This document shows, in pieces, positions 8,548 through 28,809 of a stretch of DNA of 35,341 bases. Numbering within the stretch: position 1 is the first letter of the stretch; the number at the start of each line of letters is the position of its first letter. This DNA comes from Lachnospiraceae bacterium (GTDB lineage: Bacteria > Bacillota > Clostridia > Lachnospirales > Lachnospiraceae). Made by a program: the position numbers and the translations under genes. The notes beneath the pieces are model-generated. The model did no database searches and was not told the origin of the DNA. It saw nothing but the letters and a program-made list of their open reading frames with translations. The stretch covers positions 1 through 35,341 of the forward strand of contig JAIECJ010000015.1 of NCBI GenBank assembly GCA_029068555.1. Direction: 5' to 3'.

Positions 8548-9684
8548 CTATTTTACAATATCAAATGTATCTGCAAGCAGAAGCCAGTTTGCGCGAAATA
8601 GTTTCATAACCTGCCAGTACCCCATTCCGCGAAGTCCATATTCCACAATCAGATCAAATTTCTCCCGCATGCTTCTCACATCCTCAAACCATACTTCATG
8701 CTGCACTCCGTCCCTTTCATAGCGAAAAAACGGGGACATGGCAATCTGGTCAAACTGTATTGCCGCATTATTTTCCACTGCCAGCTGAACCGCCTCCGCA
8801 TTTCCGACTGTCCGCGCCTTAGAGCTGCCCTGCACAAAGGGCAGTGTCCAGTCATACCCGTAATTCGGAATCCCAAGGTCTATTTTTTCCGTCGGAATTT
8901 CTGTCACCGCATACTCCACAACCTCACGCACCTTGTTAATGGGCGCGACTGCCATAGGCGGACCATACGTATAACCCCACTCATAAGTCATTAACAGTAC
9001 ACTGTCCGCCGCCGCACCAAGCAGCTTATAATCCTTCCCCTCATACAAAAGTCCTTTCTGATCTGCCGAAGTCTTCGGTGCAAGTGCCACGGAGACAGGA
9101 TATCCCTTTGGTGCTGCCTGATTCCTGACATTTGCGACAAAGTCTGCGTATGCTACCCTGTCCTGTGGCAAAATATATTCAAAGTCAATATCAATGCCTG
9201 CATATCCTTTGTTTTCCATTGTCAAAAAAATCTGATCTATCAGATTCTGTTGTGCTTCCATATTGTGAGTAATCTCACTAATCAGATAATTGTTGAACAT
9301 TCCTGACTGGTCAAAAGGAGTCAGAACCAGAAGCGGCGCTGTGCCCTGACTCCAAGCCTCATTGATTATCCGGCTGTCATCCACCTGCGGCGGAATCAGA
9401 TTCCCACTCGTAGTAAAACCATAGGAAAATACAGAAATATTGGTCAGATATGGCAATGTTTCGGAAAGCACCTCATCCCGTATGTATGGATATGCATAAC
9501 CGTTGACACGAACCGCCCTCTTCTGGTGTGTCTCCCCCTCCACCGGAATCAATAATGCCTGCCCTACTGCAAGGCGATAAGGTTCCGGTATCTGATTATC
9601 ATATGCAATCTCCTCTGCACTGACAGCAAACGCTGCCGCAATACTGTCCAAGCGATCTCCTTCTTTTACTACATAAATCTGCAT
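8548..9684 (-). CDS. LysM-GH18 spore cortex-lytic-type glycosidase (SleL/YaaH-like)
   Basis: A 378-residue protein with one LysM peptidoglycan-binding domain at residues 2-48 (IYVVKEGDRLDSIAAAFAVS ... ALLIP) and a GH18 domain from about residue 58. The GH18 catalytic signature GYAGIDIDFEY puts the likely catalytic Glu at 169. LysM-GH18 proteins of this build are spore-associated N-acetylglucosaminidases that cut cortex fragments during germination. I chose ATG 9684, where MQIYVV starts the LysM domain directly after AAAGGA; the frame runs upstream to 9753 but that part overlaps the subtilase gene. Having a germination-protease relative as its neighbour fits a germination role. No signal peptide is visible, as is common for spore-coat proteins. 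Confidence 0.88.
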   Translation of the reverse strand: MQIYVVKEGDRLDSIAAAFAVSAEEIAYDNQIPEPYRLAVGQALLIPVEGETHQKRAVRVNGYAYPYIRDEVLSETLPYLTNISVFSYGFTTSGNLIPPQVDDSRIINEAWSQGTAPLLVLTPFDQSGMFNNYLISEITHNMEAQQNLIDQIFLTMENKGYAGIDIDFEYILPQDRVAYADFVANVRNQAAPKGYPVSVALAPKTSADQKGLLYEGKDYKLLGAAADSVLLMTYEWGYTYGPPMAVAPINKVREVVEYAVTEIPTEKIDLGIPNYGYDWTLPFVQGSSKARTVGNAEAVQLAVENNAAIQFDQIAMSPFFRYERDGVQHEVWFEDVRSMREKFDLIVEYGLRGMGYWQVMKLFRANWLLLADTFDIVK

Positions 9685-9719
9685 ATAATCATAATCCTTT
9701 CCTGTTTCCGCGTTTTCTT

Positions 9720-11129
9720 TTACCTCACATTTGCCAATGCACCCTCCACGCACAACGTTCCCCAGCCTGTTTTGCTGTTGGGTCGGACTGATATATCAGA
9801 AAGAGACTGTGATCCCCGTATCAGACTTGCTTTTAGCCGTTCCCCATACAGAAACCGGTCATTTCCGCGAACAATCCCCCACTCCATCAAAAGCGCTGCT
9901 GCCCCTGTGACAAACGGTGTCGCAAAGGAGGTTCCTGACACCTGCTCATATCCGCCGTTTGGCATAGGTACTGTGATATCCACTCCCGGGGCTGTCAGAT
10001 CAGGCTTCACATCTGCGATAATCTGCTGCCCTCCTGCCATATCTGTCCTGCCATCATCATAACGGTAAACATATCCCCTCCCCGAAAAATCCGCATAACT
10101 TCTGCGTGATACATCATAAGCGCCAACTGTAACAGCCCTCCTTGCCGTCGAAGGAATCGTGATTGTCATTTCTGGTGTCGGCAGGAAAAATCCGGTTGCA
10201 GCGTTTCTTGCCGCATATCCCGGAAGATAGAACCTGTATTCTCCAGTCACTAGCGATACCGGCTGAAGTTCTATGCGCCACACCCCACTGTTTATATAGC
10301 TTCCCGTCGGTATCATGTCAATGAATATTTCCTGCTGTACATTATAGGGGAGCGGTTTTCCCAGATAACATAGCAGCTGGGTCTGTTCCAGCGTGCGCCG
10401 CACAGCCTGTGCTTCCCTGAGACCAGAAAGCTCCAGTGTCACCTGTTCCTTTCCAGGCGATGTGATAACCAGATTAAAGACATCCTGATAAAACTTCCAC
10501 AGCTGTATGCTGAGTCCCGTCTCATAATCCGCCACCGCAAGTTCAGTCACATGACTACTATCCCGCATTACGCCTGCAGTATGACCTCTCGATGCCCCCT
10601 CATTTCCGCTTCCTATAACCAGAATGCTTCTCCCTATTTCAGAAGCGTTGTCGACAAAGCGCTCTAGCAGGGAATTGCCCTGATGATCACCATACGTGTT
10701 GCCAAAGCTGATGTTCACCGCTACTGGCTTATTCAGCTCCACGCCAAACTTCACTGCATAGTCGATTCCTCTCATCAGCTGTGTGGTTCTCGGGAAAGAG
10801 TCAGCCCGCGGGGTTCCAAGCCTGACAATCAGCAAATCCGCTTTGGGCGCTATCCCCATCCCCGTCCCAGCTGCCACGCCTGCCACTGCTGTCCCATGAC
10901 CTGACAAGTCAAAAACAGGCACCAGCCTTTGTCCGCTTTCGCGTCCTAAAGCCAGTGCCTCGTTAATCATCTCTCTCGTATAAAGCACACCTTCCCGGTA
11001 TCCCGCAGGAGGCAGCCTTCCCTGTTCCTCATCAGGCTGCCCCGTCTGATCCCAGATTGCCAGAATCCGTGTCTGTCCGTCTGCATCGCGAAATTCTGGA
11101 AGGAAGTAGTCAATCCCCTCTCCTGTCAA
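9720..11129 (-). pseudogene. Csp-like subtilase, 5' end removed by mobile element
   Basis: A 469-residue remnant of a clostridial subtilisin-like (S8) protease of the CspA/B/C type; the best-known members activate the cortex hydrolase SleC at germination. The His motif SGHGTAVAGVAAG (His78), the oxyanion-hole region GSGNEGASRGHTAG and the Ser motif SGTSFATPFVTGAAALL (Ser401) are intact. The N-terminal part is missing: homology starts at GIDYFLPEFRDADG, which normally directly follows the catalytic Asp segment (IDSG). The visible frame opens with a TTG lacking a good ribosome site. The break coincides with the recombinase element edge. It is inactive as it stands unless excision restores it. 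The GH18 gene follows in the same orientation after 35 nt. Confidence 0.87.
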
Positions 11130-11263
11130 GTAGTTGCAAACACTTTTTTAACTTTTTTTCAAGGGCCTTACCACTTTTTCGCTCCAAATAGATACCTGCT
11201 GTTAAACCATTGCTTGATAATACGAACTTCCGTGTTAGATAACTGCAAAATTCCAAAGCCTGA
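11112..11263. other. Junction between csp-like gene and recombinase element
   Basis: Protease-like coding sequence is recognisable up to roughly 11115-11125. Beyond that the sequence changes to an A/T-rich stretch (on minus, AAAAAAAGTTAAAAAAGTG) and then non-coding DNA before the stop of the first recombinase. This is where one attachment site of the element should lie. No second copy of the core was found in the window, so the exact crossover cannot be fixed. Confidence 0.6.
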
Positions 11264-12790
11264 CTATGCCATGTCAGCTTTTTCTTTCCAAAAAATTTCT
11301 ATATGCTTTTCATCATAGACCACAATTTTATCAATATAATGCTCTATCATTTCTTTTGACAGTACTGCGAATCGTTTTCCGAAGTTCAGACTGTCATGCC
11401 CGCATTCCAATTTGGTATATACTGCTTCCATTTCCCGAATATCATCATTCAGACCTGTCCGTTCATCCTCTATTGATTTTACCATGATTTCACCAGAGTG
11501 GAAACTGTCTGTTTTACCAGACACATAATCCTGATATGCCTCAAAATTCTGCTGCTTTATCTTTTGTATTCTTGCTGACAATAAGCTCCTTTTGTTCTTT
11601 AGTTCCTTAATCTCCTTATCTATCCTGACCATCGCTTCTATACGAAGCTTTTCCAGCTCTCCGTCTGCCTGCAGTTTCTCCTGCATCTTATAAAGAACAT
11701 ATTGCTCCATAAACATCACATTTATCTGATCCACACAGTCATTCATCCCACTAGAATAGCGGTGATGACAGGTAAAGTACGGATTAAGTCCCTTGCGATA
11801 ACTTAAATTCTTTTTACAGCACCCACATACCATTTTCCCAACAAGCGGATGTATGGGCGTATTCTGCGGATTTCTTTTCTTTCCCCGACCTTCCTGCACT
11901 TTATCAAACACATTCCTGTCAATAATCGGTTCATGGTGATTGTAACGAACCATCCATTCCTCACGGGGCTTTATGTGGTTCCTTCCCCCCACAAAATCCT
12001 TTTCGTACTTTTTCTGTACAATATTTCCTACATATATTTCATTCCTAAGTATCTGACAGATTGTGCTGTTGCTCCACAAAAACCGTTCACCTTTTGGCTC
12101 TCTGCTTGTTTTTCCCTTTTCAATCTTAAATTCAATCGGTGTCTTAACACGATTCTCATTAAATAGTTTGGCTATCTCTACCGAAGTATATCCTTCCACA
12201 GTTAAAGAGAAGATTTGTCTGACAATCTCTGCCTCGTCCTCGGCAATCAGCAATGCGTGTCTGTCCTCCGGATCCTTTTCATATCCAAATGGACTGTTTG
12301 CACTTACATATTGCCCCTTTTCCTTTCTAATAGCCAGGGAAGAACGGACTTTCTGGGATAAATCCTTACTATATAAATCATAGAGAAGATTTTTAAAATT
12401 CACATCAATATCCGCAATACTTCCCTGATAGTTCTGACTATCATAGTTATCATTGACGGAAATAAAGCGGACACCCATAAACGGAAATATCTGCTCAAGA
12501 TATGAACCAAGTTTAATATAATCCCTTGCAAATCTCGAAAAGTCCTTTACTACAATACAGTTGATTTCAGAATTTCTGACCATTTCCAGCATATTCTGCA
12601 TACCGGGACGTTCAAAATTCGTTCCAGTATATCCATCATCGCAAAACGCAAGCAGGTCATAGTCTGAGAAATGCTCTGCAACAAACCTCTGCAAAAGTAT
12701 TCTCTGCATTGTAATACTGTTACTTTCACACCTTTTTTTATCATCTTCTTTTGACAATCGAATATACATTGCAATCTGATACTTTTTCAC
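11264..12790 (-). CDS. Large serine recombinase 1
   Basis: A 508-residue site-specific DNA integrase/resolvase. The N-terminal resolvase domain has the nucleophile Ser13 in MYIRLSKEDD and the helix motif VVKDFSRFARDYIKLGSYLE. A Recombinase (PF07508-type) domain covers about 155-280. A zinc ribbon follows (VCGCCKKNLSYRKG ... FTCHHRYSSGMNDC), then a C-terminal coiled coil rich in Glu/Lys. The start is GTG at 12790, with AGGAGG 9 nt upstream. It is the last of three recombinases, nearest the disrupted protease gene. It probably acts with the other two in integration or excision. Confidence 0.95.
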   Translation of the reverse strand: MKKYQIAMYIRLSKEDDKKRCESNSITMQRILLQRFVAEHFSDYDLLAFCDDGYTGTNFERPGMQNMLEMVRNSEINCIVVKDFSRFARDYIKLGSYLEQIFPFMGVRFISVNDNYDSQNYQGSIADIDVNFKNLLYDLYSKDLSQKVRSSLAIRKEKGQYVSANSPFGYEKDPEDRHALLIAEDEAEIVRQIFSLTVEGYTSVEIAKLFNENRVKTPIEFKIEKGKTSREPKGERFLWSNSTICQILRNEIYVGNIVQKKYEKDFVGGRNHIKPREEWMVRYNHHEPIIDRNVFDKVQEGRGKKRNPQNTPIHPLVGKMVCGCCKKNLSYRKGLNPYFTCHHRYSSGMNDCVDQINVMFMEQYVLYKMQEKLQADGELEKLRIEAMVRIDKEIKELKNKRSLLSARIQKIKQQNFEAYQDYVSGKTDSFHSGEIMVKSIEDERTGLNDDIREMEAVYTKLECGHDSLNFGKRFAVLSKEMIEHYIDKIVVYDEKHIEIFWKEKADMA

Positions 12791-12810: not shown

Positions 12811-12839
12811 GCTAGAGCATTTTTCAGATACGCTCTAGC
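12811..12839. repeat. Palindrome at recombinase 2 3' end resembling the miniature element ends
   Basis: GCTAGAGC (12811-12818) and GCTCTAGC (12832-12839) form a perfect 8-bp inverted repeat around 13 nt. Read on the minus strand it is GCTAGAGCGTATCTGAAAAA followed by TGCTCTAGC. The first 26 bases match the terminus of the miniature elements at 17814 and 21332 at 23 positions. The repeat encodes the last residues and stop of recombinase 2 (LER-I-stop). It could be an intercistronic hairpin, a remnant of an element end, or a recombinase recognition site. Confidence 0.7.
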
Positions 12840-14503
12840 AGGACATCATTTCTTTTGAAAGTAAAAATAACCTTCACACGATGATCCGGATAAATTTCTA
12901 TTCTATGAATCAATGTTCCGACTACTTCTGCTGTCAGCTCACCCTTTTCATTTCCCTTAACCAGCGTACGCAAAAAGTGATTTTTCTGAACCGTCTCGTA
13001 ATCTATTGTCGTGAGCTTTTCTGCAACATCTGCACGTTTCTTTTGAAAAGAAGTAATCTTTTTATCATTTTCCTCCTTCATCCGCTTAAAGCTTTCAGCA
13101 TCCATTTCTCCCATTCTGTATTTCAGATACTGCTCACTGGTACGCTTTGTTAGATTTTCAATTTTTCTCTCCAATTCCAACAGTTCTTCATTCCAATCTG
13201 CTTTTAACTGCTCTGCTTCCTTATTATTGCTCTCTGCTAAATCTTTTGGCCGCATGGCTGATAATGAAAATTCCTGCCGAATTGCTTCCCGTACAAGGTT
13301 ATTCAGAGAATTTAGCGTGATGCTCTTTGCAGTACACCTGTCATCATCAATACGGTCCGTCTTAGGGCAGTTGTAACTGTATGTCCGAATACTATCTTTA
13401 GAACCAAACGTCTTTATGGCACTTATCCTTTTCATTTTAAAACCACAATCGCCACAATACAGAACATCGGCATATATATCTTCGTCTATCGGAATCTTTT
13501 TTGAATACCCGTTCTTATTACAATATATGGAAGATTTTTCAAACTTCCCAGCAGCCTTAAAAAACAATTCCTCATTTATGATTGCTTCATGGGTATGCTC
13601 CTTTACGGACCAGTCCTCAGAATCAATGTCATGTCTGTCCCGCATCATATAGTCTTTTCCACAAGTTCTCCCCTGCACAAGGCACCCCCTATATACAGGA
13701 TTTGTCAAAATCATTTTAACAGTTCCCCTTGACCACTGCTGCAGTTTCTCGCCATCCTGACAATAAACGTGCCCTGTCTTATGATATTCCGTAGGTCTGA
13801 CTATTTTTTCTCCATAGAGCCATATAACTATTTCCTTCATGTTTTTACCGGAAAGAAACAAATCAAATATCTTTTTCACAATATCTGCGGCGGCGTCCTC
13901 TACAAAAAGGCATTTTTTATCTCCAATCCACTCCGCCTTATATCCATATGGTGCAACTCCGCCTGTATAACTGCCCTGTTCCCATTTTGCCTGCCTGCTG
14001 GATTTGACCTTTACGGCAATATCCTTTGCATACATTTCATTCACAAGGTTTTTCAGATTTACACGCAACGTTTCATTCTGTCCGGATATGTTCATACTGT
14101 CAAAGTTATCTGTAACAGCAATAAACCTCACTCCCATAAATGGAAATATCTTTTCGATATAGTTCCCAGTTTCAATGTGGTTTCTTCCAAACCGTGACAA
14201 ATCTTTTACAACGATGCAGTCTATCCTCCTCATCCTGACATCACGCATCATACGCTCAAAACCCTCACGCTCAAAGTTTGTTCCGGTTTTTCCTATATCT
14301 GTATAGCAGTCAAATAAACCTAAATCACTCTGTCTGCTTATGAAAGCCTTTGCTATCTCTATCTGCGTTTCAATAGATTCGTTCTTTCTGTCATTTGCAT
14401 CCACAGATAATCTTGCATATATCCCAACAGAATATATTTTTGACGGTCTTGCATTTACAGTTAAATTCTCATTTGTCTGTTTCTTCTTAGAGGTTCTTGC
14501 CAT
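12824..14503 (-). CDS. Large serine recombinase 2
   Basis: A 559-residue large serine recombinase. The resolvase domain starts late, after a ~25-residue basic tail (MARTSKKKQ). The nucleophile is Ser33 in GIYARLSVDAND, and VVKDLSRFGRNHIETGNYIE is the conserved helix. The middle recombinase domain contains VAPYGYKAEWIGDKKCLFVE. A zinc ribbon (LYCGDCGFKMKR ... YNCPKTDRIDDDRC) precedes a coiled-coil C-terminus. ATG follows the previous gene's stop directly (TAAATG), with GAGGAGG just upstream inside recombinase 3. Its last codons lie in the palindrome shared with the miniature elements. Confidence 0.95.
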   Translation of the reverse strand: MARTSKKKQTNENLTVNARPSKIYSVGIYARLSVDANDRKNESIETQIEIAKAFISRQSDLGLFDCYTDIGKTGTNFEREGFERMMRDVRMRRIDCIVVKDLSRFGRNHIETGNYIEKIFPFMGVRFIAVTDNFDSMNISGQNETLRVNLKNLVNEMYAKDIAVKVKSSRQAKWEQGSYTGGVAPYGYKAEWIGDKKCLFVEDAAADIVKKIFDLFLSGKNMKEIVIWLYGEKIVRPTEYHKTGHVYCQDGEKLQQWSRGTVKMILTNPVYRGCLVQGRTCGKDYMMRDRHDIDSEDWSVKEHTHEAIINEELFFKAAGKFEKSSIYCNKNGYSKKIPIDEDIYADVLYCGDCGFKMKRISAIKTFGSKDSIRTYSYNCPKTDRIDDDRCTAKSITLNSLNNLVREAIRQEFSLSAMRPKDLAESNNKEAEQLKADWNEELLELERKIENLTKRTSEQYLKYRMGEMDAESFKRMKEENDKKITSFQKKRADVAEKLTTIDYETVQKNHFLRTLVKGNEKGELTAEVVGTLIHRIEIYPDHRVKVIFTFKRNDVLLERI

Positions 14504-16159
14504 TTACACCACCTCCTCTCTAAGCTGCCTGCTTGATTCTACATAGTCTGCAAGCATTATGACTTTTGAAAAAAGTTCCTTATAACGAAACTCCAGATAT
14601 ACCCTTTTATCTTCATATACAAAAATGCGCTTTACAAAAGAAACCAATGTTACCCTATCAAGCTCCGTGATATGCAGTGTAGTTTTCATTCGTTCCAGAT
14701 TCATTCCTGCGGTTACGCCTGACTTAAAGAGCTTTTTAATGGTTTCCTCCTGATTGTGAATTGCCTGCTGAAGTTCCTGATAACGCAGCTCGTATATTTG
14801 TCTGAAACTCTTAAAATCTTCCTCCGTAATAATCTGTTTTTTCAAATCTTCATACAGACCTGCTCTAAGGGTTAAATATTTATCCTGTTCACTATGCAGC
14901 CTTTCAATTTCCTTATTAAAAGAAACCACCTCCTCAAAGTTAATCTCCATCTGATCAATGCTCTTAAGCACATTACTTTTATTTAAAAACAAAGACACCT
15001 GCTGTCTAAGTCCGGTTAATACAAGATGATTCAGATCATCTTCCAAAATCGTGTGCCTGCTGCAATTCCCGCGCTTGTTCTTTGTGGAACAGATAAATGA
15101 AACCGTTTCTTTTCCCTTGTAGCGGTTCACTCTGCGTATCATTGGCTCTTTGCAGTCACCACAGAACAATATACCTGCATAAATATGGGATTTTTTCTCC
15201 CCGTTTCCTGCGCGGGTATCTATTTTCAGTAAATCCTGCACAATATCAAAATCTTCCTTTTGAATAATGGCTTCATGCGCATCATGTGCCTTCGTCCATT
15301 TCTCCTGCGGTTTCATTACTGATTTCTTTACTTTGTAATTTACCTTTTCTTCCTTGCCCTGCACTAAGGTTCCGGTATAATTTTCATTTGTCAGAATCCG
15401 CTTTACTGCAACTGCTGACCATTTCGTTTTCACTCCGGTTACAAAACCCGTCTGAAATTTCTCTCCCTGCATCCTTTTATATTCCATTGGAGAAAGTACC
15501 CCTAAATTATCCAATAATTCAGCAATCGCAAGATTGCTGTACCCCTCTATTTTCCATGCAAAAATCTTTCGTACAATATCGGCAGCATAATCATCGGGTA
15601 CAAGCAGATTCCGGTTATCTTCACTTTTCTTATATCCATAAACTGCAAATGCACCAATGAAATCTCCATTTTCCCTCTTGATTTTCTGATGGCTTCTTAC
15701 CTTGCCGGATATATCTCTGGAATAAGAATCATTGACAAAGTTCTTTACCGGTACAACTAAAGATGTCTCATTGTAATCTGCTGTTAAGGAATCAAAATGG
15801 TCTGTCAACGCAATAAAACGTACAGAAAAAGCCGGGAAGGTCTTTTGAATCAACCGCCCGGCTTCTATATAATCTCGTCCTAATCTGGATAAATCTTTTA
15901 CTATTACACAATCAACATTGCCAGCTTCAATATCTTTCATCATCCGCTTAAACTCAGGTCTGTCAAAGTTTGTTCCAGTAAAGCCGTCATCTACATATAT
16001 ATCGTAGATTTCCATGTTGTCCTGCTTTCTGATGTATGAGCGAATCATGTCTCTTTGTGAGCTGATACTATTACTTTCCGCTTTGTTGCCATCAATATCC
16101 CCATCATCACGGCTTAAACGGAGATAAATGGCTACATTATAAAATTCTTTTGCTTTCAT
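14504..16159 (-). CDS. Large serine recombinase 3
   Basis: A 551-residue large serine recombinase and the first gene of the recombinase operon. The nucleophile is Ser16 in VAIYLRLSRDDGD, and VIVKDLSRLGRDYIEAGRLI is the conserved helix. It has a recombinase domain with FAVYGYKKSEDNRN, a zinc ribbon (LFCGDCKEPMIRR ... FICSTKNKRGNC), and a coiled-coil tail. ATG at 16159 has AGGAGG 8-9 nt upstream. The three paralogues differ strongly in sequence, so they are not recent duplicates; the trio is a set that probably works together. Confidence 0.95.
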   Translation of the reverse strand: MKAKEFYNVAIYLRLSRDDGDIDGNKAESNSISSQRDMIRSYIRKQDNMEIYDIYVDDGFTGTNFDRPEFKRMMKDIEAGNVDCVIVKDLSRLGRDYIEAGRLIQKTFPAFSVRFIALTDHFDSLTADYNETSLVVPVKNFVNDSYSRDISGKVRSHQKIKRENGDFIGAFAVYGYKKSEDNRNLLVPDDYAADIVRKIFAWKIEGYSNLAIAELLDNLGVLSPMEYKRMQGEKFQTGFVTGVKTKWSAVAVKRILTNENYTGTLVQGKEEKVNYKVKKSVMKPQEKWTKAHDAHEAIIQKEDFDIVQDLLKIDTRAGNGEKKSHIYAGILFCGDCKEPMIRRVNRYKGKETVSFICSTKNKRGNCSRHTILEDDLNHLVLTGLRQQVSLFLNKSNVLKSIDQMEINFEEVVSFNKEIERLHSEQDKYLTLRAGLYEDLKKQIITEEDFKSFRQIYELRYQELQQAIHNQEETIKKLFKSGVTAGMNLERMKTTLHITELDRVTLVSFVKRIFVYEDKRVYLEFRYKELFSKVIMLADYVESSRQLREEVV

Positions 16160-16566: not shown

Positions 16567-16721
16567 ATCCAAACCTCAATACACCTACTCTTTCTATTTT
16601 ATTTCTATGGCAGATTGTCCTATGACATGATTTTCTGCTTTCCTTACCTTAAAGTTCTCTTGTTCCAAATATTCTTTAACAGCAAACTAAATAAAGTGCA
16701 GGCATATCCTGGAAAGGGAAG

Positions 16722-16895
16722 GTGAATAAACAAAGGAAAGTTGACTGTATATGCCAGGAACAGAAAGGATTACACCTACATTTCAATTCTCCGCACTTTG
16801 AAGTTGCGCAATTGAAAAAATTAGCACATATAGATTGGTTGCAACTTGTCGAGGAGAATACTATACTGATAATGCAGCGCGGCGCAAGAAAATAA
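16722..16895 (+). CDS. Possible small ORF upstream of XRE regulator
   Basis: A 57-codon frame with GTG at 16722 and a modest AAGGGAAG site upstream. It ends in LVEENTILIMQRGARK, 14 nt before the regulator's ATG. The residue usage looks protein-like but I do not recognise it, and no homologue comes to mind. It may be a short upstream gene, or the C-terminal scrap of a lost one, as the frame is open from about 16695. Treat it as tentative. Confidence 0.3.
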   Translation: MNKQRKVDCICQEQKGLHLHFNSPHFEVAQLKKLAHIDWLQLVEENTILIMQRGARK

Positions 16896-16909
16896 AAGGA
16901 GAATATTTT

Positions 16910-17578
16910 ATGAGTTTTGGAAAAAATTTACAATTCTTAAGACATTTGAAAGGAAATATGACGCAAGAGGATTTGGCTGAAAAAATGAATATCAGTCGTC
17001 AAACCGTATCAAAGTGGGAGCTGGATACAGCACAGCCCGAAATGGACAAGGCTATAGAACTTTGCAAGCTTTTCAATTGCTCGCTGGACAACTTGTTCCG
17101 CGATGACATGGCCGCTTGTGATGAAGCGTACACAAATTTGCGTGTCGAAACTGTCCCCGCTTTCCGCTATATAAAACATGCCGTTATCAGCTCCAATCCC
17201 GAGGGAGACGCTATCGACAGAGTATTTTCCATTGCCCGTGGCTGCGGTGTGGATAACCCTCGTGTAATCGGTTGGGATTTTCCCCATGTGTCACAGGAAC
17301 AGATCAATGTTTTCAATATGCATGGATACGAAGCGGCATGGATACTGCCCGACGGAGTCATTCCTCCCGACATGGAAATATACGAGCAGGCGGATCACAG
17401 GTATGCAGCGGTACACATTGAAGCGCCTTTCGGAAATCCTTTTGTGACCATTCCCAACGCATACAAGACGCTTATGGAGTATATGCATGTGAATGCTCTG
17501 GAACACACGGAAAAGGATGTGATCCCCTGCTTTGAAACCGATGGGGATAGTATGGATATTTATATTGCTTGTAAGTAG
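16910..17578 (+). CDS. XRE-type regulator with GyrI-like effector-binding domain
   Basis: A 222-residue one-component regulator. Residues 1-65 are a Cro/CI helix-turn-helix (MTQEDLAEKMNISRQTVSKW). From about residue 75 a GyrI-like/AraC effector-binding fold follows (VETVPAFRYIKHAVIS, AAVHIEAPFGNPFVTIP, and the ending VIPCFETDGDSMDIYI). Such domains bind small hydrophobic or cationic ligands, and the regulators often control efflux. The ATG at 16910 follows AAAGGAG; the frame is open to 16835, but the added residues are not HTH-like. No adjacent target gene remains, because a miniature element and pseudogenes follow. Confidence 0.9.
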   Translation: MSFGKNLQFLRHLKGNMTQEDLAEKMNISRQTVSKWELDTAQPEMDKAIELCKLFNCSLDNLFRDDMAACDEAYTNLRVETVPAFRYIKHAVISSNPEGDAIDRVFSIARGCGVDNPRVIGWDFPHVSQEQINVFNMHGYEAAWILPDGVIPPDMEIYEQADHRYAAVHIEAPFGNPFVTIPNAYKTLMEYMHVNALEHTEKDVIPCFETDGDSMDIYIACK

Positions 17579-17606
17579 CTCATTTCATTGTACAAAACTT
17601 ACTCGT

Positions 17607-17814
17607 CTAGAGCGTGTTTGAAAAAACATTCCTGCCGCCTGCATAGCGACGCCAAGGCGTCGTATTCACCACTTTGCGTGATATTTGCACCAAATTCAGT
17701 CAGCATAAGGCATTGCCCTTTATGCCTTTGCCCCTGCACCTTCTTCATTTGGTACAAATCTCCCACAAACTGTGACGCACATCCGACAGAAAGCATTTTT
17801 CAAACACGCTCTAG
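17607..17814. mobile_element. Miniature inverted-repeat element (208 bp)
   Basis: Both ends carry the perfect 19-bp terminal inverted repeat CTAGAGCGTGTTTGAAAAA (left 17607-17625; right 17796-17814, inverted). The interior has nested inverted repeats, so the whole unit can fold into a long hairpin; it has no gene. A second, shorter copy is at 21165-21332 and a partial one at 1-77. It is typical of a MITE moved in trans. CTAG at each end may be a duplicated target or part of the repeat. It cuts off the remnant gene to its right. Confidence 0.85.
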
Positions 17815-17998
17815 CAGGATGACTTTCCGATGCCAAATAATGAGCCTCACTTTTTGAAGTCACCTTTCGCAGCTGTATAGCCCTCTCTGTCAAACTCATA
17901 TTGTTTTCATAACGAGAGTTTAAGGCTTTCAAATTCTTTTGCTGCAATTGATAATTCATTTAATAGTCGCGAAAATGCAGTTCATTGTTATCACCCAT
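17815..17998 (-). pseudogene. Unrecognised gene remnant truncated by the miniature element
   Basis: Reading leftwards, the frame starts at ATG 17998 (MGDNNELHFRDY), meets an in-frame TAA, then continues MNYQLQQKNLKALNSRYENN and on to KSEAHYLASES, where the miniature element begins. The helical, Gln/Asn-rich sequence looks protein-derived but I cannot assign a family. The in-frame stop and the element insertion both indicate a dead gene. Confidence 0.45.
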
Positions 17999-18042
17999 GT
18001 ATCTGTCAGGACGGATAAGAAAAAGAAGCACCAAGTAAAATC

Positions 18043-18234
18043 TTATGATTCGAAAGGGTTAATATATACAATATCTTTTGTATTGGCAATTTCATAAAAT
18101 TCACCGACATATGTTTCAAGATAATTCTTTACATCGTCCCAATTTACAGACCGGGAGTTTGACAGTTGAATATTAAGAAAAGTGCCTACAGGTATTGATT
18201 TACCTGCATTTTTAGACAAACGGCAAGTTATCAT
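18043..18234 (-). CDS. Hypothetical 63-residue protein
   Basis: A short frame beginning MITCRLSKNAGKSIPVG and ending DIVYINPFES. Its ATG overlaps the stop of the frame to its right by ATGA, as in translationally coupled genes. It could equally be the C-terminal part of the same decayed gene. I do not recognise it, and it has no signal peptide or membrane helix. Confidence 0.4.
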   Translation of the reverse strand: MITCRLSKNAGKSIPVGTFLNIQLSNSRSVNWDDVKNYLETYVGEFYEIANTKDIVYINPFES

Positions 18235-18812
18235 TCCGCGTCAATATCTAATGTTTCAATCAAAAAGCTAACCCAATATATATCTATCCAATATGTTGTA
18301 CGGTTTGAACGATTTCCTCTGTCTTCTACAACAAACGATGAACAACTCGTACCATTTACATCTATACTTTTGTCCATGTAAATTGTAGTTCCTAATTTAA
18401 CTTTCGTATTTGTTGTATTTCCAGTTTTTGTAGTTACATTGATATGCATTGCACACATGCCGACTGTTGGTGTTTTTCCACTGGCTGTCAGAGCGCCAGA
18501 TTTAGCCACATAAGCTGTTCAATCCTGCTCTGTCTTGTTTATCTTTGTAGACATTGCTGACTTTGTTAAAGAATATTCCACCGAATCTGAAGCTTGGGTA
18601 TTAGGAATCCGAGTTGCCAAACTGGAAAATAGTGATACTTTTTCTGCATTCAGTCCTTCTTCAATCGCCACTGTTACTCCTTCCTGCATTTCCCCACAAT
18701 CAGCACTATAGCTATAGTATAATACCGTACAGACAAATGGTAAACCATTTGTATTATATATTAAGTAAATAGTACAATCAGGGAAATAGAATAAAGAATC
18801 CCAGGCAATCAA
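18231..18812 (-). pseudogene. Decayed gene with an in-frame stop, unknown family
   Basis: Two frames in the same register are separated by one in-frame TGA (just after MSTKINKTEQD). The second continues AYVAKSGALTASGKTPTVG. The joined product has a Thr/Asn/Gly-rich, beta-like middle (VTTKTGNTTNTKVKLG, SCSSFVVEDRGNRSNRTT) resembling a surface or exported protein. The apparent N-terminus before residue ~30 looks out of frame and no signal peptide is visible. I cannot name a family. On the other strand at 18790-18918, another remnant-like frame ends QDKVYHTLSDPKTATLYKPT. Confidence 0.45.
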
Positions 18813-18979
18813 TGGGTATACGATTGAATATTCGCAGCATTTCAGTTCTAAGCAAGATAAAGTATATCATACGCTCTCTGATCCAAAGACGGCTACTTTG
18901 TACAAACCAACCGTTTAACAGATATTTAGTGAGGTATTAATATAAAGGCATAACATGCTACTTATGGACACTGACGGCA

Positions 18980-20155
18980 CTATCCCATCATATTAATTTT
19001 CGCAATACTGATCTTTTCCTCAGATGAATCAATCTGCATGCATGCACTGCCATCCAAAGTATGCCAGATATTGCCATAGGAATATTCTTCACCAAACAAA
19101 AGCAGATTTGTGTACGTCTGTGTCTCCGGTTCAATACACCATATTCCGTTTCTCGTAGATACGATAATCAGATCATCCAATAGCATGTAAGCAAATTTTC
19201 CGCCCATCTCCTCGAGGGAAATACATTCCAATTGCCCTGACTGGTAATCATATAGCCACAATTCATCATCTGACTCATAGGATTCTCCCCAGATGCAGAA
19301 TTTATCATTTGCGACCGGATGCATTATTTTTGATGGCGTCAATAACGTAATCTTTCCATCTTTTTCCCTGTCTTCAATGTAGATACTGCCGGTTTTAAAA
19401 TATTTTTGTTTTGCACCATCAGGAGTGTGCATTTCATAAGTACATATTTTGCCGTCAATAATGGATATCTGTTCATACGGTGACGCCAGATCCAGTCCCT
19501 CTTTTTCGAGCTTTATTTCTTTCCTTATGATATCATAGCTATAAAGTTTGATCGGATGTCCATTCTTTTCCAGGTCGTCCTGATCATACCAGTATATTTT
19601 CTGTTCCGCCAGATTTGGTATGATATCCCAGAGCCCTCCTTCTGTATCGCCATCTGAAAAGATTGTCTCCGCCACGCTGTCCTTCTCTGTCAATGACAGC
19701 ATTTTTATACGCCATGACATATTTTCCCGTCTCGGATACTCCTCCCAAATCAGTATCTTCCCATCTGTACATAGATCCGTAATTGCGATAATGTCTTCCG
19801 CCTGATACAATATTTTTGTATCTCCGGACTGTATATCATATGACATCACCTTCGTGCAATACTCTGATGTCGGTTCTATGGCGTCTTTCCCTTCATGGTC
19901 TGTCAGATAATCAATATAGTCTGCTTCATAATAGACCATTTCATCATATACAGTCCATGCAGATACATATGCGTATTCTGATTTTGGAACATCTATAATC
20001 TCTAAACGGACCCGTTCTTTAAGATGGTCCGCTTCTGTATAGATTGCCATTTCTTTTTTCTGTTCCCGAAAATCTAAAACACTGTCGTCCCTGCCGCCAC
20101 AGCCTGTAATACTGACTATGATCATACATATTAGCGCTATACACCGTTTTCCCAT
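18980..20155 (-). CDS. Lipoprotein with beta-propeller-like repeats
   Basis: A 391-residue protein with a lipoprotein signal (MGKRCIALICMIIVSITGC; lipobox Cys19). The body is a series of short beta-rich repeats of the type KVMSYDIQSGDTKILYQAED, KLYSYDIIRKEIKLEKEGL and LWLYDYQSGQLECISLEEMG, the pattern of a beta-propeller exposed outside the membrane. The frame is intact and the ribosome site weak (GAGAG). Upstream on the same strand is a broken BlaI-type repressor gene, so this may be the surviving member of a BlaI-BlaR1-like sensor operon. Ligand and role are unknown. Confidence 0.75.
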   Translation of the reverse strand: MGKRCIALICMIIVSITGCGGRDDSVLDFREQKKEMAIYTEADHLKERVRLEIIDVPKSEYAYVSAWTVYDEMVYYEADYIDYLTDHEGKDAIEPTSEYCTKVMSYDIQSGDTKILYQAEDIIAITDLCTDGKILIWEEYPRRENMSWRIKMLSLTEKDSVAETIFSDGDTEGGLWDIIPNLAEQKIYWYDQDDLEKNGHPIKLYSYDIIRKEIKLEKEGLDLASPYEQISIIDGKICTYEMHTPDGAKQKYFKTGSIYIEDREKDGKITLLTPSKIMHPVANDKFCIWGESYESDDELWLYDYQSGQLECISLEEMGGKFAYMLLDDLIIVSTRNGIWCIEPETQTYTNLLLFGEEYSYGNIWHTLDGSACMQIDSSEEKISIAKINMMG

Positions 20156-20301
20156 AAATCTGCTACTCTCTTTTAATAAATTAAATATCTTTCTGATTCC
20201 TTATTAATGCTGTTGAAGGCTTCTGATAATGTCACATAATGAATACCATAATATGCACCATTATTTTACAGTCAACAATCCGAACTATATCTGTAGTTCT
20301 A

Positions 20302-20466
20302 TTAATCCTGCTGCTGCATCCTGAACAGGAACGTATTGAGGGTCTGCTTTTTCCAGTCCTTTTGTGTTCTCGCATTGAAATCATCCAAAAGCTCTCCCAG
20401 AAATACCGGCTCTCCTTTTGCCCACAATGTTTCCATGATTTCCAATTACGCTTCTGTCATATCCAT
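20302..20466 (-). pseudogene. BlaI/MecI-family repressor remnant
   Basis: From ATG 20466, preceded by AAGGAG, the frame reads MDMTEA, an in-frame TAA, then LEIMETLWAKGEPVF, FNARTQKDWKKQTLNTF and RMQQQD before another stop. This is the N-terminal winged-helix of BlaI/MecI/CopY repressors (consensus L..aELeIM..lW..gep ... t.kdW...Tv.tfL.rL). It has about 54 codons where intact members have 120-130. The early stop and the truncation show it is dead. Its partner BlaR1-type metallopeptidase is absent. Confidence 0.75.
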
Positions 20467-20553
20467 CTTCTCCTTAACAAGTACTATATTTATAGAATAA
20501 TACGATACAGGAGAAAATTCAATACTTTTATTAGACAAAATCCGGTTTTCCTA

Positions 20554-20832
20554 TCACCTCCACTCTTTCCGGATATCCGGCTGATAACCTGCCGTAGCCT
20601 GTTTTCCATTTCTTACAACAGGGGTTTTCAGAACCTTCTGGTTTTCAAGTATTTTTTCGTCTTTGTCCTCATCTGCGGTATATTTTATCAGCGCAAGCAA
20701 ATCCTTGTCCCTACACTTTTCGTCAAGAAGATTCCCACTGCCGCCCACTGCCTGCGGAATGTATTTTTTTCTTTATTCACCCAAACCCTTGTGCCTTATA
20801 TTTCTTTTGGTTTCTCTGTATTCCTTTTTCAT
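20554..20832 (-). pseudogene. ArsC/Spx-like (arsenate reductase family) remnant
   Basis: The C-terminal ~64 residues (VGGSGNLLDEKCRDKDLLAL, then KTPVVRNGKQATAGYQPDI) match the end of the ArsC-like thioredoxin-fold family, where the P-V-V-R-N-G-K segment is conserved. Upstream in the same frame there is a TAA stop at 20773-20775, preceded by a degraded stretch starting at ATG 20832. The N-terminal catalytic Cys region is lost. It is a clear pseudogene on the minus strand. Confidence 0.7.
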
Positions 20833-20859
20833 CTATAACTGCCTTTTCCCAAACCACTT

Positions 20860-21176
20860 ATGACAAGTTTCCTTTACTACCATGATTATGATTCGCTTGA
20901 CGAAGATACCCGCAGTCTGTACCGTCAGGGCATTTCCGCTTTCGGCGGCATATCCCCCACTTATCAGATCGCGCTTGAAAAGGATTCTCCCGTTATCGTA
21001 TGAGATTTCCATTCCCTACTTGTCATGGTGCAGATGTGCTTTTCATTCATGCTCACGGATAAGGGCAGTGATATGCGTATGTGCAAACACTGTAAAAAAG
21101 CCTTTGTCGCAAGCCGGAAGGGGAATGAATTTTGCAGCCAGAGGTGCAAGAACCAGTTTAATGTCTATAAATCGTG
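20860..21176 (+). pseudogene. DUF6076-like zinc-binding protein remnant
   Basis: From ATG 20860 the frame reads MTSFLYYHDYDSLDEDTRSL ... EKDSPVIV, hits TGA at 21001-21003, then continues DFHSLLVMVQMCFSFMLTD and a Cys cluster: CKHCKKAFVASRKGNEFCSQ followed by RCKNQFNVYKS. That C-terminal zinc-ribbon pattern is the one I associate with DUF6076 proteins of gut Clostridia (recalled, not checked). The gene is interrupted by the stop and cut off by the miniature element. Confidence 0.65.
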
Positions 21177-21332
21177 TTTGAAAAATCATTCCTGCCACCT
21201 GCACGCCCCACTTTGCCTGATATTTGCGCCAAATTCAGTCAACATAGCCCGCTATGCCTCCTTCATTTGGCACAAATCTCCCACAAATTGTGACGCACAT
21301 CTGGCAGAAAGCATTTTTCAAACACGCTCTAG
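21165..21332. mobile_element. Miniature inverted-repeat element, shorter copy
   Basis: This is a second copy of the 208-bp element, lacking internal segments (about 165 bp). The right end is the complete CTAGAGCGTGTTTGAAAAA inverted repeat (21314-21332). The left end keeps CGTGTTTGAAAAA but has CTATAAAT in place of CTAGAG, so it is mutated or was inserted imperfectly. Its left half resembles the copy at 17607 and its right half is nearly identical to that at position 1. It terminates the DUF6076-like remnant. Confidence 0.8.
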
Positions 21333-21491
21333 CCAAATAACACCTTTACATTGATTAAAGCCCTTGAATTTGTCATACCTTTGTCGTATGGCACACATTT
21401 TGTCGTACTCTCTGTCAGTCCTAGCTGGACTCTTTCCTAAAATACATCTAATTTGTGTGCTAAGTTTTGAATTGCTTACGGCGCTAAAAAT

Positions 21492-21635
21492 ATGTTAAAG
21501 CGCCTCGGAATCGACACCAGAAACCTTGATGTGGAAAAACTGCGCAGCGAATACAATACGCTATATTCCAAAAAAGTAACCCTGCAAAAACATATAAGTC
21601 TGCAACATATGAATAAAATTACCAAAACCCTCTAA
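21492..21635 (+). pseudogene. C-terminal scrap of a relaxase-like gene
   Basis: The frame reads MLKRLGIDTRNLDVEKLRSE, YNTLYSKKVTLQKHI and stops at 21635. The pattern (R-G-I-x-x-x-x-L-D-V-E-K-L followed by a helical tail) is what I recall from C-termini of mobilisation relaxases in Lachnospiraceae. The N-terminal relaxase domain is absent. It is a probable leftover of a conjugative or mobilisable element; identification is from memory of the tail only. Confidence 0.4.
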
Positions 21636-21647
21636 ATTCGACATTAA

Positions 21648-21693
21648 AAAAGTGTATCATGCAGAAAGCTGTTACTTCTCACGATACACTTTT
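21648..21693. terminator. Inverted repeat, possible bidirectional terminator
   Basis: AAAAGTGTATC (21648-21658) and GATACACTTTT (21683-21693) are a perfect 11-bp inverted repeat with a 24-nt loop, followed by AATTTTTG. It lies after the relaxase-like scrap on plus and downstream of the small gene at 21961 on minus. The stem is AT-rich and the loop long, so efficiency is doubtful. The remaining sequence to 21960 holds no supported gene. Confidence 0.5.
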
Positions 21694-21960
21694 AATTTTT
21701 GCAGTCTTTGGACACCTTTCCCGTTACGCTTTCGTGCCTCTATATATCTTTTTATCACTATGTTTTTCCCCTGACTTATCCGGTTTTCCCCTACTTATAT
21801 TACAAGGCATATCCGGTGGGAAAACCAACAGCATACTACTGCTATTGATTCCCCCTGTATCCTTTTTCCTTTTCCAACATTTGTCTATGAAATGGGCTGT
21901 CCGATATAGACAGCCCATGCAAAATGTATTTGCAAATCACTACACACTGTCTCGTTGTTC

Positions 21961-22155
21961 CTATTTACTGGTAATCGTTATTGTCTTATCCTCGCTTGAA
22001 CATGATGTCGATTCTACTTCCATTCCGGTTTCTTCTGCCAGATGGTCGATAATGTAGTCCTCAAGCCCTCCGTCTACAAACCATGTGAAAAAATTCTGTG
22101 CAACTGATTCTGCATCTTTTCCTTCAAATATAAATGTTACCTTACTGTTTCCCAT
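21961..22155 (-). CDS. Hypothetical small acidic protein
   Basis: A 64-residue product, MGNSKVTFIFEGKDAESVAQ, then FFTWFVDGGLEDYIIDHL and a Ser/Thr-rich end. It has an AGGAGG site at ideal distance, which argues for a real gene. It has no membrane helix and no family that I recognise. It follows the frameshifted membrane-protein gene after about 70 nt in the same direction, so the two may be co-transcribed. Confidence 0.65.
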   Translation of the reverse strand: MGNSKVTFIFEGKDAESVAQNFFTWFVDGGLEDYIIDHLAEETGMEVESTSCSSEDKTITITSK

Positions 22156-22227
22156 TTCGTTTCCTCCTTATACTATTTGTTGTTATGTAGTGTTGAAAAT
22201 ACATTATTGCTTTATTTAATACCTACT

Positions 22228-23237
22228 TCAACTTTCCTGTTCGTCCTGTTTCCTACTATTTCTCCGAATAACAATCCAACTTATCAAAATAAGCGCTATG
22301 ATAATCGCCAGCCAGATAAAGTAACAGATACCTAAGAATGTCGGCGGATAAAATTTTCCTGTGGTTTCCTCCAGCCAGCCCAACTGGTATCCGGGGCGTT
22401 CTGGCTTTCTGAATTTCACGGCAGTCGGACGTTTGTAACTGAACACATACTCGTGTTTTTCCTCCGTATCAACGGCGTCCCCTGTATAGATAATCCTCGC
22501 CCGGTATAAGACATCCGCATCTATGGTATTCAAGCCCGGTATATTGTCCACAACCATCAATCGCTGATTGATCGTACTCGCTTTTTCTACCGTACATACA
22601 ATATAAACAGGCTTTGCTTCCTGATGAATCTCCTGTTCTGTCTCATTGGTAATCTCGTCAGCCTTATAATTAACAATATCTAATCTATATGTCCAGCTAT
22701 CCTCACTATCGCTTTGTCCTATCGTAACATGATCCTCGTCATTAGCCGGCAATAAACCGCTGTTTTCATGAGTTGCACAATCCTTATGATTGCTGTCCTT
22801 GACCGTTTTCCAAAAATCGGAGTCTGAAACAATACCTCCTGCCCATGTGCTTTGGTGTCAGCATCGCAATCATAACAGCAGCTGACCCCAACCCGATCCC
22901 ATATCTTACCGGTTTTCCTCATGTTCAAAACATTTCCACTATTACTATTCCATGTCAGTTTGTCTATGTTACCGCTATTAATCAAAGCTTTAACCGTAAA
23001 GCTGGGACAGATTTCTGCCTCCGCCCATAGTTCCACATCCGATTCCTCTATGATGTTTTCTGAATTTGCATCTCCAAATACTACATAATCACTATAGTTG
23101 ATCTTAACATGACCGTTAGCCATGAGGTCTTTATAACCCTTTTGCATCATTTCCATTTCTTTTGTGCGAGCCGTATCTTCCATGCCCTCCATACTCTCCG
23201 TTATTGCTACATTTTCCAAGTTTTCTGTATTCTCCAT
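22228..23237 (-). pseudogene. Membrane-anchored protein gene with a frameshift
   Basis: ATG 23237 (AGGAGG upstream) opens MENTENLENVAITESMEGME. The frame holds to about QEVLFQ (~22825), where a one-base shift is needed to continue as DSDFWKTVKDSNHKDCATHE and GLLPANDEDHVTIGQSDSED into the second frame ending at 22228. Joined, it gives roughly 330 residues. There is no signal peptide, a beta-rich middle, one C-terminal membrane helix (YFIWLAIIIALILISWIVI) and a basic/acidic tail. I do not recognise the family. It lies downstream of the Agr-like kinases, so it may once have been regulated by them. Either a dead gene or a phase-variable site. Confidence 0.65.
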
Positions 23238-23300
23238 TTGTTTCCTCCTTTTTGATTTGATTTATGAGTCTCCGTGAAACCGTGAAACCATTTAAGCAGA

Positions 23301-23340
23301 AGCTCTTTCACTATCTTTCACTAATTTTCATTAATTTTCT
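23301..23340 (-). repeat. Four tandem 10-bp units upstream of the frameshifted gene
   Basis: On the plus strand the 40 bases divide into AGCTCTTTCA, CTATCTTTCA, CTAATTTTCA and TTAATTTTCT. These are four imperfect 10-bp units, so TGAAA recurs once per helical turn on the minus strand. They lie 64-103 bp upstream of the start at 23237. This could be a regulator-binding array or simple AT-rich drift. The ~280 bp between this gene and the truncated kinase hold nothing else I can support. Confidence 0.4.
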
Positions 23341-23517
23341 GCGTTTTTCCTCTTTTGTCTTTATTACCCATATTTATTGGTATATTGATTGTTCTATTTT
23401 TTCATTTTATGTGTGCTATTATAACAAAAAAAACACTTAAAAAGTGGCTTTGGCAGATTTGGTCGGTTTTTAGGCAGATTTGGTTGAAGATTTTTTCAAG
23501 AAATATATTGAAAAAAT

Positions 23518-24219
23518 TTATAAGTTCAAGACCGCACAGACGGAACAGACTTCCTTTTCTATCTTGTAGTCCAGATTTCCATCATACTTCCGGCAGACAG
23601 AGAGGATACTGGATATGCCAACACTTTTCTTTGCGGGCAGACCGCCTGCAAGCTCCATGTCATCCGAACAGGTGTTGTTGCACAGAATGATCAGTCTTTT
23701 GTTCTGCAATCGGATATGGACCTCAATACTTATGTTTTCTTTCCCGGATTCCTGACATCCGTGCAGGGCATTTTCAAGCAGGTTCCCCAAGAGGGCAATC
23801 AGGTCGATCTCCCGCACCTTTAGTTCTTTTGGGACATTACATCGGATCAGAAAATCAATGCCACTTTCCCTTGCCTTATCCGCATAGGCAAAAAGAATAC
23901 TGTTTATCGTCCGGTTTTCAGAGTATCTCTTTACTGCCGCCCCTGATATTTCTGTACTGTATTCTCCGATATAGGCAAGGATCGCAGAAGTGTCGCATGT
24001 TTTTGCATATTCTGCAATCGCATCAATATGGTGCCGCATATCATGCCGGAGTCTGCGGTTTGCTTCCTCTGCATTTTGCAAAACAGACAGCCGGTTAGAA
24101 AGATATTCTGCGTTCTGCCGGACTAATGCCGCCTCTGCATCCCTTTTCATGTAGCTGATATTGCTGAATACAACGCCATATACCGCACACATAATAAAGC
24201 TGGTTACGACAAACGTCAA
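23518..24219 (-). pseudogene. GHKL sensor kinase (AgrC-like), N-terminally truncated
   Basis: A 233-residue remnant of an AgrC-type histidine kinase. It keeps a final membrane helix (TFVVTSFIMCAVYGVVF), a linker helix, the phosphoacceptor region RRLRHDMRHHIDAI (His59), the N box LLGNLLENALHGC and a G-box-like KKSVGISSILSVCRKYDG. The usual five or six upstream membrane helices are missing; a stop lies just upstream in frame and the only start is TTG. It stands where an agrB gene would be expected after agrD, so a deletion may have removed agrB together with this kinase's N-terminus. It could still be expressed as a cytoplasmic fragment. Confidence 0.75.
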
Positions 24220-24526
24220 GAAATATGCTGAGACAAGAACCCATCAGCATAAACGAGCACTCCCGTTAACTTCCCGTAAATTTTTGCGTCTGCTCTTTGG
24301 TCTGCTGGACAAGAGCCAACTCTACTCTCCGGAGAAGCGTAGGTAATCCATAGTATATACTGAACTTACGTTCTTTTTTGACCGTAGGTCTATTAAGGTT
24401 ACCATTTCACGCTTTTTATTAGGATTTCGCGCTGATTTTCATTACATTACAAAAAACTCCCTTTCGTATCATTTCAAATTGATTCAAAAGAGAGCTTTCA
24501 GTAAAATTTCTATTGGACCATCCGAT
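24220..24526. other. Gap between truncated kinase and AgrD-like gene
   Basis: About 307 bases with only short frames (the longest convincing minus-strand start, ATG with AAAGGGAG upstream, stops after one codon). I see no AgrB remnant and no clear terminator. The region probably carries the scar of a deletion or rearrangement. Confidence 0.4.
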
Positions 24527-24670
24527 TTACTTCTTGATCCTCTTCAGTCCCGCCGGCTGCTTGGGCTGGTGGTAAATATACATACATCTGCTGTCTGCGG
24601 CTGCCTGTGCCGATCTTCCTGCTACATTTTTCATCAATTTTGCCAATACGTTTTTGTTGGTTCCTTTCAT
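24527..24670 (-). CDS. agrD: AgrD-like cyclic lactone autoinducer precursor
   Basis: A 47-codon gene. ATG 24670 is 8-10 nt after AAGGAGG. The peptide has an N-terminal amphipathic helix (MKGTNKNVLAKLMKNVAGRS), a short AAADSR linker, a core CMYIY with Cys29, and a charged tail beginning HQPKQPAGLKRIKK. This aligns with staphylococcal AgrD, where the five-residue thiolactone ring is followed by a tail with P-x-x-P. AgrB would cut after Tyr33 and close the ring on Cys29; the exported peptide would be sensed by the GHKL kinase encoded just upstream. The gene follows that kinase by ~117 nt in the same direction. No AgrB gene is visible. Confidence 0.88.
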   Translation of the reverse strand: MKGTNKNVLAKLMKNVAGRSAQAAADSRCMYIYHQPKQPAGLKRIKK

Positions 24671-24700
24671 CTGTGAAATACCTCCTTATCAATATATTTA

Positions 24701-24727
24701 ACATAGTAAAATTATTTTTTACTATGT
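24701..24727 (-). promoter_or_regulatory. Hairpin/operator-like palindrome upstream of agrD
   Basis: ACATAGTAAA (24701-24710) and TTTACTATGT (24718-24727) form a perfect 10-bp inverted repeat with a 7-nt loop, starting 31 bp upstream of the agrD start codon. A second small palindrome, CTCGTA-TACGAG, is at 24763-24779, close to the kinase stop. The AT-rich stem lies in the kinase-agrD gap and could be a regulator site for autoinduction, or an mRNA hairpin that separates agrD levels from the kinase. Confidence 0.5.
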
Positions 24728-24787
24728 TTTAGTATATATCCTTTACCATTTTCTCTTTGTTGCTCGTAATAAATACGAGTATCTGCG

Positions 24788-27226: not shown

Positions 27227-27382
27227 AGTTGTATCATCCTTTCTCTCTTTTTCATTTTACATAAAAATATATCGAATGATTACAACTATACACTGTATCT
27301 TATTTACTCGTATATGTGTTTTTTAATATTATGAAAATGCATAACTTAGTTTTTGCTATAAACAAAGGTTTGACATTAACTC

Positions 27383-27415
27383 AAAGAAGCCGTCCATAAG
27401 CTGGGCGGCTTCTTT
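27383..27415 (-). terminator. Terminator downstream of amidase gene
   Basis: A 13-bp stem (AAAGAAGCCGTCC at 27383-27395 with 27403-27415, one G-T pair) around a 7-nt loop, with T-rich tails on both sides. It lies 20 nt after the amidase-domain gene stop, before the Agr-like operon promoter region. Its place isolates the Agr unit from upstream transcription. Confidence 0.75.
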
Positions 27416-27434
27416 TCTGCGAAATAGTAACATT

Positions 27435-28538: not shown

Positions 28539-28578
28539 AGTTATTCCTCCTTTTTTAGTTTAGTCAATCATGAAACCT

Positions 28579-28762: not shown

Positions 28763-28809
28763 ATACCGTCAGTTTATATGGCAACTGCTATTATATATAT
28801 GACACTTTT

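Follow-up and report, generated by a model that had tools for sequence, protein, structure and literature searches.

A csp germination protease gene of Lachnospiraceae split within its catalytic D-[S/T]-G codons by an element with three tandem serine recombinases

The interrupted csp gene and the element beside it

The window, by which we mean the whole 35,341-nucleotide stretch analysed, is an entire contig of a draft genome, G000 in what follows. It contains the 3′ half of a csp gene, a host gene directly downstream, and an element that spans position 11118 to the contig end at 35341 (Table 1). The csp ORF, 9720-11129 on the minus strand, has a translation that begins (M)TGEGIDYFLPEF and keeps both SGHGTAVAG, with the catalytic His, and SGTSFATPFV, with the catalytic Ser. 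The catalytic-Asp segment is absent from this ORF and, as the ORFs and their translations read, stops lie in frame upstream. The product matches Peptidase_S8 of Pfam and aligns with the CspBA model over its positions 95-517 (317 bits, E 2.5e-94), a C. difficile-specific model whose own cut-off of 1250 bits lies above this score. The sequence-only reading had described a Csp-like protease with His and Ser motifs and no Asp segment, and the ORF and both matches bear it out. By homology, the split gene is assigned to the CspB-like germination subtilases. It shares with the clostridial CspB family the subtilase triad and the alignment to the CspB part of CspBA, but differs in being interrupted by an element and in having, in the window's genus, its prodomain in a separate gene nearby.

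Table 1. Features of the csp locus and of the adjoining element in the window
Feature	Coordinates	Strand	Description
LysM + GH18 protein, cortex-lytic type	8548..9753	-	Host; directly downstream of csp; PF01476, PF00704
csp 3′ half	9720..11117	-	Host; His and Ser motifs, without catalytic Asp; open to its natural stop
2-bp core GG	11116..11117	-	Opening two bases of the Gly codon that follows the catalytic Asp; putative, from junction comparison
Element right end (attR arm), TTTGCAACTACTTGACAGGAGAG	11118..11140	-	Pattern match 11116-11140
Large serine recombinase, external	11264..12790	-	Resolvase and Recombinase domains; Zn ribbon below cut-off (Pfam)
Large serine recombinase, middle	12824..14503	-	Resolvase and Recombinase domains
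Large serine recombinase, internal	14504..16159	-	Resolvase and Recombinase domains
DUF6870 protein, 92 aa	16294..16572	-	TTG start; PF21757, 2.6e-18
Remaining right arm	16573..35341	.	HTH regulators, GHKL kinases, LytTR regulator, amidase, C39-like peptidase, proteins without Pfam match

The boundary between host and element is the GG at 11116-11117, not the end of the ORF at 11129, the bases from 11118 to 11129 being element DNA. Base composition changes nearby: the two 1-kb intervals before 11001 have a GC content of 0.475-0.513, and the next six one of 0.35-0.42. On the host side, the LysM and GH18 gene adjoins csp in several intact relatives as well.

On the element side stand three tandem recombinase genes (11264-16159), all on the minus strand and oriented towards csp. 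Their distance from the csp ORF was correctly given as 135 bp in the sequence-only reading, but the gap flanks the 3′ end of the external recombinase, with its stop at 11264, and not a gene start. The external recombinase is 80% identical to its counterpart in G035 and 77% to that in G190. Homologues of the DUF6870 protein precede the triplet in G035, G190, G373 and G397, and by reading in G331 too; in the 4.8 kb unit of G397, it is the sole ORF noted besides the recombinases. By position only, DUF6870 is a candidate directionality factor.

The rest of the right arm is assigned to the element because the host flanks are contiguous in intact relatives, as described below. In the window, where the element is incomplete, no conjugation or mobilisation gene was recognised in the ORFs searched with Pfam, and scans of the window with Rfam at the gathering threshold and for tRNAs were empty. 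Searches of plasmid and phage collections gave only matches below 60%. Among ten window proteins compared with PHROGs, one HTH protein had regulator matches, and there was one weak match of unknown function. A phage origin was considered and rejected: the csp query had no relative in viral contigs, and relatives of the recombinases there were at most 64% identical over the best segment.

The 5′ half, the empty site and the crossover core

The 5′ part of csp, which the sequence-only reading proposed to seek in the full genome, lies elsewhere in the same genome, on contig C172 (C172:10589-10690, 42-aa query). It comprises 34 codons that translate as MNDYEKVQSCVVQVTQQEPYLTGENVMIAVLDSG and end in VLDSG, past which the frame exits the gene. 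The triad is thus divided between contigs, with Asp in the 5′ half on C172 and His and Ser in the 3′ half in the window, and the 5′ half stops at the same GG at which the 3′ half begins. When 13 relatives were compared with both contigs, the flanks were contiguous and in the same orientation in all 12 intact ones, and the thirteenth, L023, was interrupted too. The reading that a serine-recombinase element splits csp is borne out, and the intact relatives show the empty site. A frame error or a chance resemblance at the csp 5′ end was also considered, and is ruled out by the 5′ half elsewhere in the genome together with the intact relatives.

The CspB prodomain (PF18425) is not within the split gene; it is encoded by a separate, divergent gene at C172:7986-8384 (-), 2.2 kb upstream. 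The two parts of the CspB-type protein would accordingly be encoded separately in the window's genus, as judged from these gene positions. A stand-alone PF18425 gene apart from the protease-domain gene is found in a similar arrangement in G035, G007, G010 and G331.

Where is the crossover point? In the junctions compared, the host codon to the left of GG varies (AGC, ACT, TCC, ACG, AGT, TCG), and so does the host wobble base to the right (G, C, T, A), while the element's own ends are alike, not identical, across insertions. Since host codons vary on both sides of GG, the comparison points, as the probable core, to the GG that opens the Gly codon following the catalytic Asp, within the D-[S/T]-G codons. 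Two other cores, AT and GGGGAT, were considered, as both ends share GGGGAT; they would imply a frameshift in G000. They were rejected because the base after GG follows the host's own Gly codon elsewhere and because an intact allele in G123, described below, matches from GG onward.

When the short flanks are rejoined at this core, D-[S/T]-G-I is restored in frame in all seven genomes with both ends: LDSGIDY in G000 and G035, IDTGIRY in G373, VDTGIDY in G331, and IDSGIDY in G397, G309 and G341. The frameshifted product that the sequence-only reading had named as contrary evidence is not what rejoining gives. In-frame rejoining is, however, expected of any conservative insertion, and it therefore speaks for reversibility in principle and not for a switch.

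The left arm in G000 is short. C172 matches the left arm of G035 only to position 10877 and is out of the element after about 240 bp; from 10926 it continues with sequence that is repeated in the genus, and then with core genes including hom and lysC. The draft is therefore misjoined at this place or the left arm has been rearranged. The three relatives compared become similar to this contig around hom only from C172:11865-11873 onward, and hence do not decide whether the join in C172 is real. The repeat itself (C172:10926-11236, L086), which stands where the left arm yields to core genes, is about 300 bp long and has copies in many genomes of the genus. Comparison of the right end of the window with the other contigs of the genome gave no useful overlap.

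These observations bear on the possibility that the insertion in G000 is one-way, its left arm having been lost by recombination at the dispersed repeat so that csp stays broken. We consider this unlikely. In its favour, C172 departs from the element about 240 bp in and passes through a repeat that occurs elsewhere in the genus to core genes, and no contig end matches the right arm. Against it, the draft is in 242 contigs and has its join at a repeat, a likely place for misassembly, and the 3′ half shows no decay. With the left arm at about 240 bp and the right arm running off its contig, excision may or may not occur in G000 itself. The destructive insertion named as the alternative by the sequence-only reading is weakened for the element family, and it may still apply to the G000 strain.

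Recurrence across genera, and the cargo at the site

Of 80 csp relatives taken from a public set of genomes, 75 keep a single frame through the D-[S/T] stretch. The other five (L023, L038, L060, L062 and L073) are all broken at one codon, each next to a related element end; the split is therefore not due to chance. All five truncated genes have the element end, so that the same truncated gene in strains lacking the element, a finding that would have weighed against an insertion, was not met with in this set. A different truncation occurs at G332 C37:69892-71070, where the csp match starts at residue 99 of a 504-aa query within a 424-aa frame.

Patterns made from the element ends matched 4 (left end) and 7 (right end) of 397 sampled family genomes, with no control match among the matches listed; the attR-arm pattern, with at most two mismatches, was found in six genomes other than G000. 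All 11 matches lie at csp halves, in nine genomes. Other searches added the interruptions in G331, G397 and G341, which brings the count to at least 12 of 397, G000 included, a lower bound to be read beside the 261 of 397 genomes with a csp match at E≤1e-30. With L038, L062 and L073, which were judged from junction letters alone, the total is 15 genomes or MAGs, L023 and L060 apparently being the same as G035 and G309. Although the sources are mostly draft genomes and MAGs, it is scarcely credible that the split is an assembly artefact, given the same junction in all 15 and, in three of these genomes, a single contig (94, 291 or 369 kb) that carries both parts of csp.

G123, a genome 61% complete, has one contig (C28) in which the element end runs into the csp 3′ half and another (C13) with an intact csp, the two agreeing in 157 of the 159 bases that begin with GG. 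This pair of alleles may represent the excised form or a second strain in the bin.

Between G000 and G190, which belong to different genera, the external, middle and internal recombinases are 77, 81 and 91% identical, against only 31% for the interrupted csp genes. The recombinases group by position in the triplet, the best matches being external to external, middle to middle and internal to internal. A recombinase match at E≤1e-120 was found in 11 of 378 genomes searched, and csp lies on the same contig in eight of these (G000, G035, G190, G373, G309, G397, G251 and G331). In G298, attR is on a separate contig and the right end beside the recombinases is altered. A related recombinase in G341 (C108, L204) adjoins a different subtilase, directly behind the catalytic-Asp region of the latter, which hints at a target motif broader than csp, and beside the related recombinase of G166 no subtilase was found. 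Consequently, csp is not the only site of these recombinases. The triplet ends in G298 (L200) and G166 (L205) stand beside genes resembling those for methyl-accepting chemotaxis proteins, named by reading only; motility cargo may recur.

Three insertions are complete, of 8.2, 15.8 and 70.7 kb (G331, G397 and G341, respectively). That of G331, with 8,215 bp between cores on a contig of 369 kb, contains the triplet, the DUF6870 homologue, an HD-domain response regulator and FapA. The 15,848 bp insertion of G397 (C55:841-16689, L215) has the order 4.8 kb unit of DUF6870 and triplet, attP-like junction, chemotaxis gene cluster, csp 3′ half; CheA, CheB and an MCP of the cluster were identified by Pfam and its other members by reading. 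These tandem modules suggest accretion at one site. In G341, a 70.7 kb flagellar and chemotaxis island (C41:93536-164285, L247-L250) sits in csp at the same GG core; it was named from its ORFs and from Pfam on seven proteins (FlhA, FlhB, FliP, FliM, MotA, flagellin and CheA). No recombinase match was found inside this island, and thus some occupants of the site cannot excise themselves.

It is tempting to regard the csp occupants as ordinary integrative elements, ICE- or IME-like, for which csp is a conserved landing site and which excise occasionally with no regulatory role, and this seems to us somewhat probable. The streptococcal ICEs with triplet serine integrases disrupt genes with repeats of 2-8 bp, according to the available text of PMC4701971; the csp element resembles them in its tandem triplet, its grouping by position, its same orientation with respect to the target, and gene disruption with a very short repeat, here GG. 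The spread across genera also favours an ordinary element, as do the ParM-like actin and the SpaA-type adhesin in the left arm of G035, which encodes a KAP NTPase as well. The streptococcal elements differ, however, in their targets (mutT, traG and hsdM) and in their conjugation modules, as described in the same text, and no gene for conjugation or mobilisation was recognised in the window ORFs submitted to Pfam or among the ORFs read in the three complete insertions. That absence is itself qualified, the elements of G000 and G035 being seen in part.

Reversibility and the question of a germination switch

Taken as a full explanation, a reversible, csp-targeting family of triplet-serine-recombinase elements with a 2-bp GG core is very probably correct. 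Within it, the case for a csp-targeting family with a triplet of recombinases, as read from these genomes, is solid, and reversibility by design is a well supported reading of the junctions. What the genomes show directly is the split and its common site, the ends of the element, the empty sites, the open halves, and the spread over genera and csp classes. An element with three tandem large serine recombinases and DUF6870 would integrate site-specifically at GG in the catalytic D-[S/T]-G codons, and csp would be split into an Asp-bearing 5′ part and a His- and Ser-bearing 3′ part. Because these residues are on separate halves, neither half alone should be an active protease; because the insertion would be conservative, recombination between the element ends would restore csp exactly and in frame. 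We infer the acting recombinase, the role of DUF6870 as directionality factor, and excision itself.

The interrupted gene shows no clear decay. For the csp 3′ half of G000, dN/dS is 0.077 against L034 and 0.052-0.077 over five pairs, compared with 0.047-0.123 in nine intact pairs of the same group; the split copy of G035 is slightly higher, at 0.090-0.117 against 0.059-0.079 in nearby intact pairs. These values come from 21 chosen pairs, of which L034-L005 is undefined. Either the insertion is of recent date, or csp remains in use after excision. G000 has one other clear Csp gene, CspA/CspC-like, on C204, and the split gene is the sole CspB-like one found there. A further Csp gene reads through in 11 of the 12 interrupted genomes; in the remaining one, G359 (89% complete), the search at the chosen threshold gave no such gene.

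Several intact relatives show, upstream of csp, a CATATGATA-like box about 14 bases after ACATA, a pair that resembles the sigma-E consensus. A sporulation promoter drawn from this box was set aside as evidence for want of a control.

Could the element act as skin does, being excised in the mother cell during sporulation so that csp is rebuilt there, and staying in the spore chromosome? We regard such a developmental switch as a tentative possibility. The target belongs to a sporulation and germination family, and the csp operon of C. difficile is sigma-E dependent, as stated in the part of PMC3789822 available to us. The halves of csp stay open, the split gene is the only CspB-like one found in G000, and gin, another non-phage element with three recombinases, behaves in this way in gerE (PMC5595907, available text). 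On the other side, any conservative insertion should rejoin in frame, the arrangement occurs sporadically (12 of 397 sampled genomes) and is not a fixed trait of any lineage, G000 has a left arm that seems rearranged or misjoined, and another intact Csp is present in 11 of the 12.

Gin of Bacillus cereus ATCC10987 is like the csp element in being non-phage, in having three serine recombinases and in splitting a sporulation gene, and its excision rebuilds gerE. It differs in its target, in its 9 bp overlap and 28.6 kb length, and in having only two recombinases in an operon and the third apart, whereas the three of the csp element are in tandem; furthermore, the timing of gin excision and the factors GirC and GirX were established experimentally (PMC5595907, as far as its text was available). 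Skin in sigK, SP-beta in spsM, vfbin in spoVFB and yin in yabG are likewise serine-recombinase elements in sporulation genes whose excision rebuilds the host gene; unlike the csp element, they are described as prophages or prophage-like, use one recombinase for their rearrangement and have other targets (PMC10747680 and PMC5595907, available portions). In the accessible parts of the literature, the interrupted genes named are sigK, spsM, spoVFB, gerE, yabG and kamA, and no description of an element inside csp was found in the open-licence literature searched, as far as its texts were available. Lachnospiraceae Csps are described in the available part of PMC6636752 as single proteins with intact triads.

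With the csp gene, a germination protease joins the spore genes split by recombinase elements. The insertion site is unusual, since it consists of catalytic-triad codons, which are conserved in both csp paralogue classes and so offer a target in many genera. In its strongest form, the proposal would make csp-intervening elements a widespread reversible germination switch in Lachnospiraceae, with csp kept split in the germ line, and rebuilt in the mother cell, by recombinases adapted to its active-site codons, and with exchangeable modules such as chemotaxis and flagellar islands carried at the site, tying motility cargo to germination; we think this improbable. If excision of the csp element is timed, gut commensals would have a genetic germination switch, and new recombinases and attachment sites would come with it. 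If it is not timed, the insertions would account for the apparent lack of one Csp protease in some spore formers of the gut, and csp would be a docking place for large modules, even a flagellar island of 70 kb.
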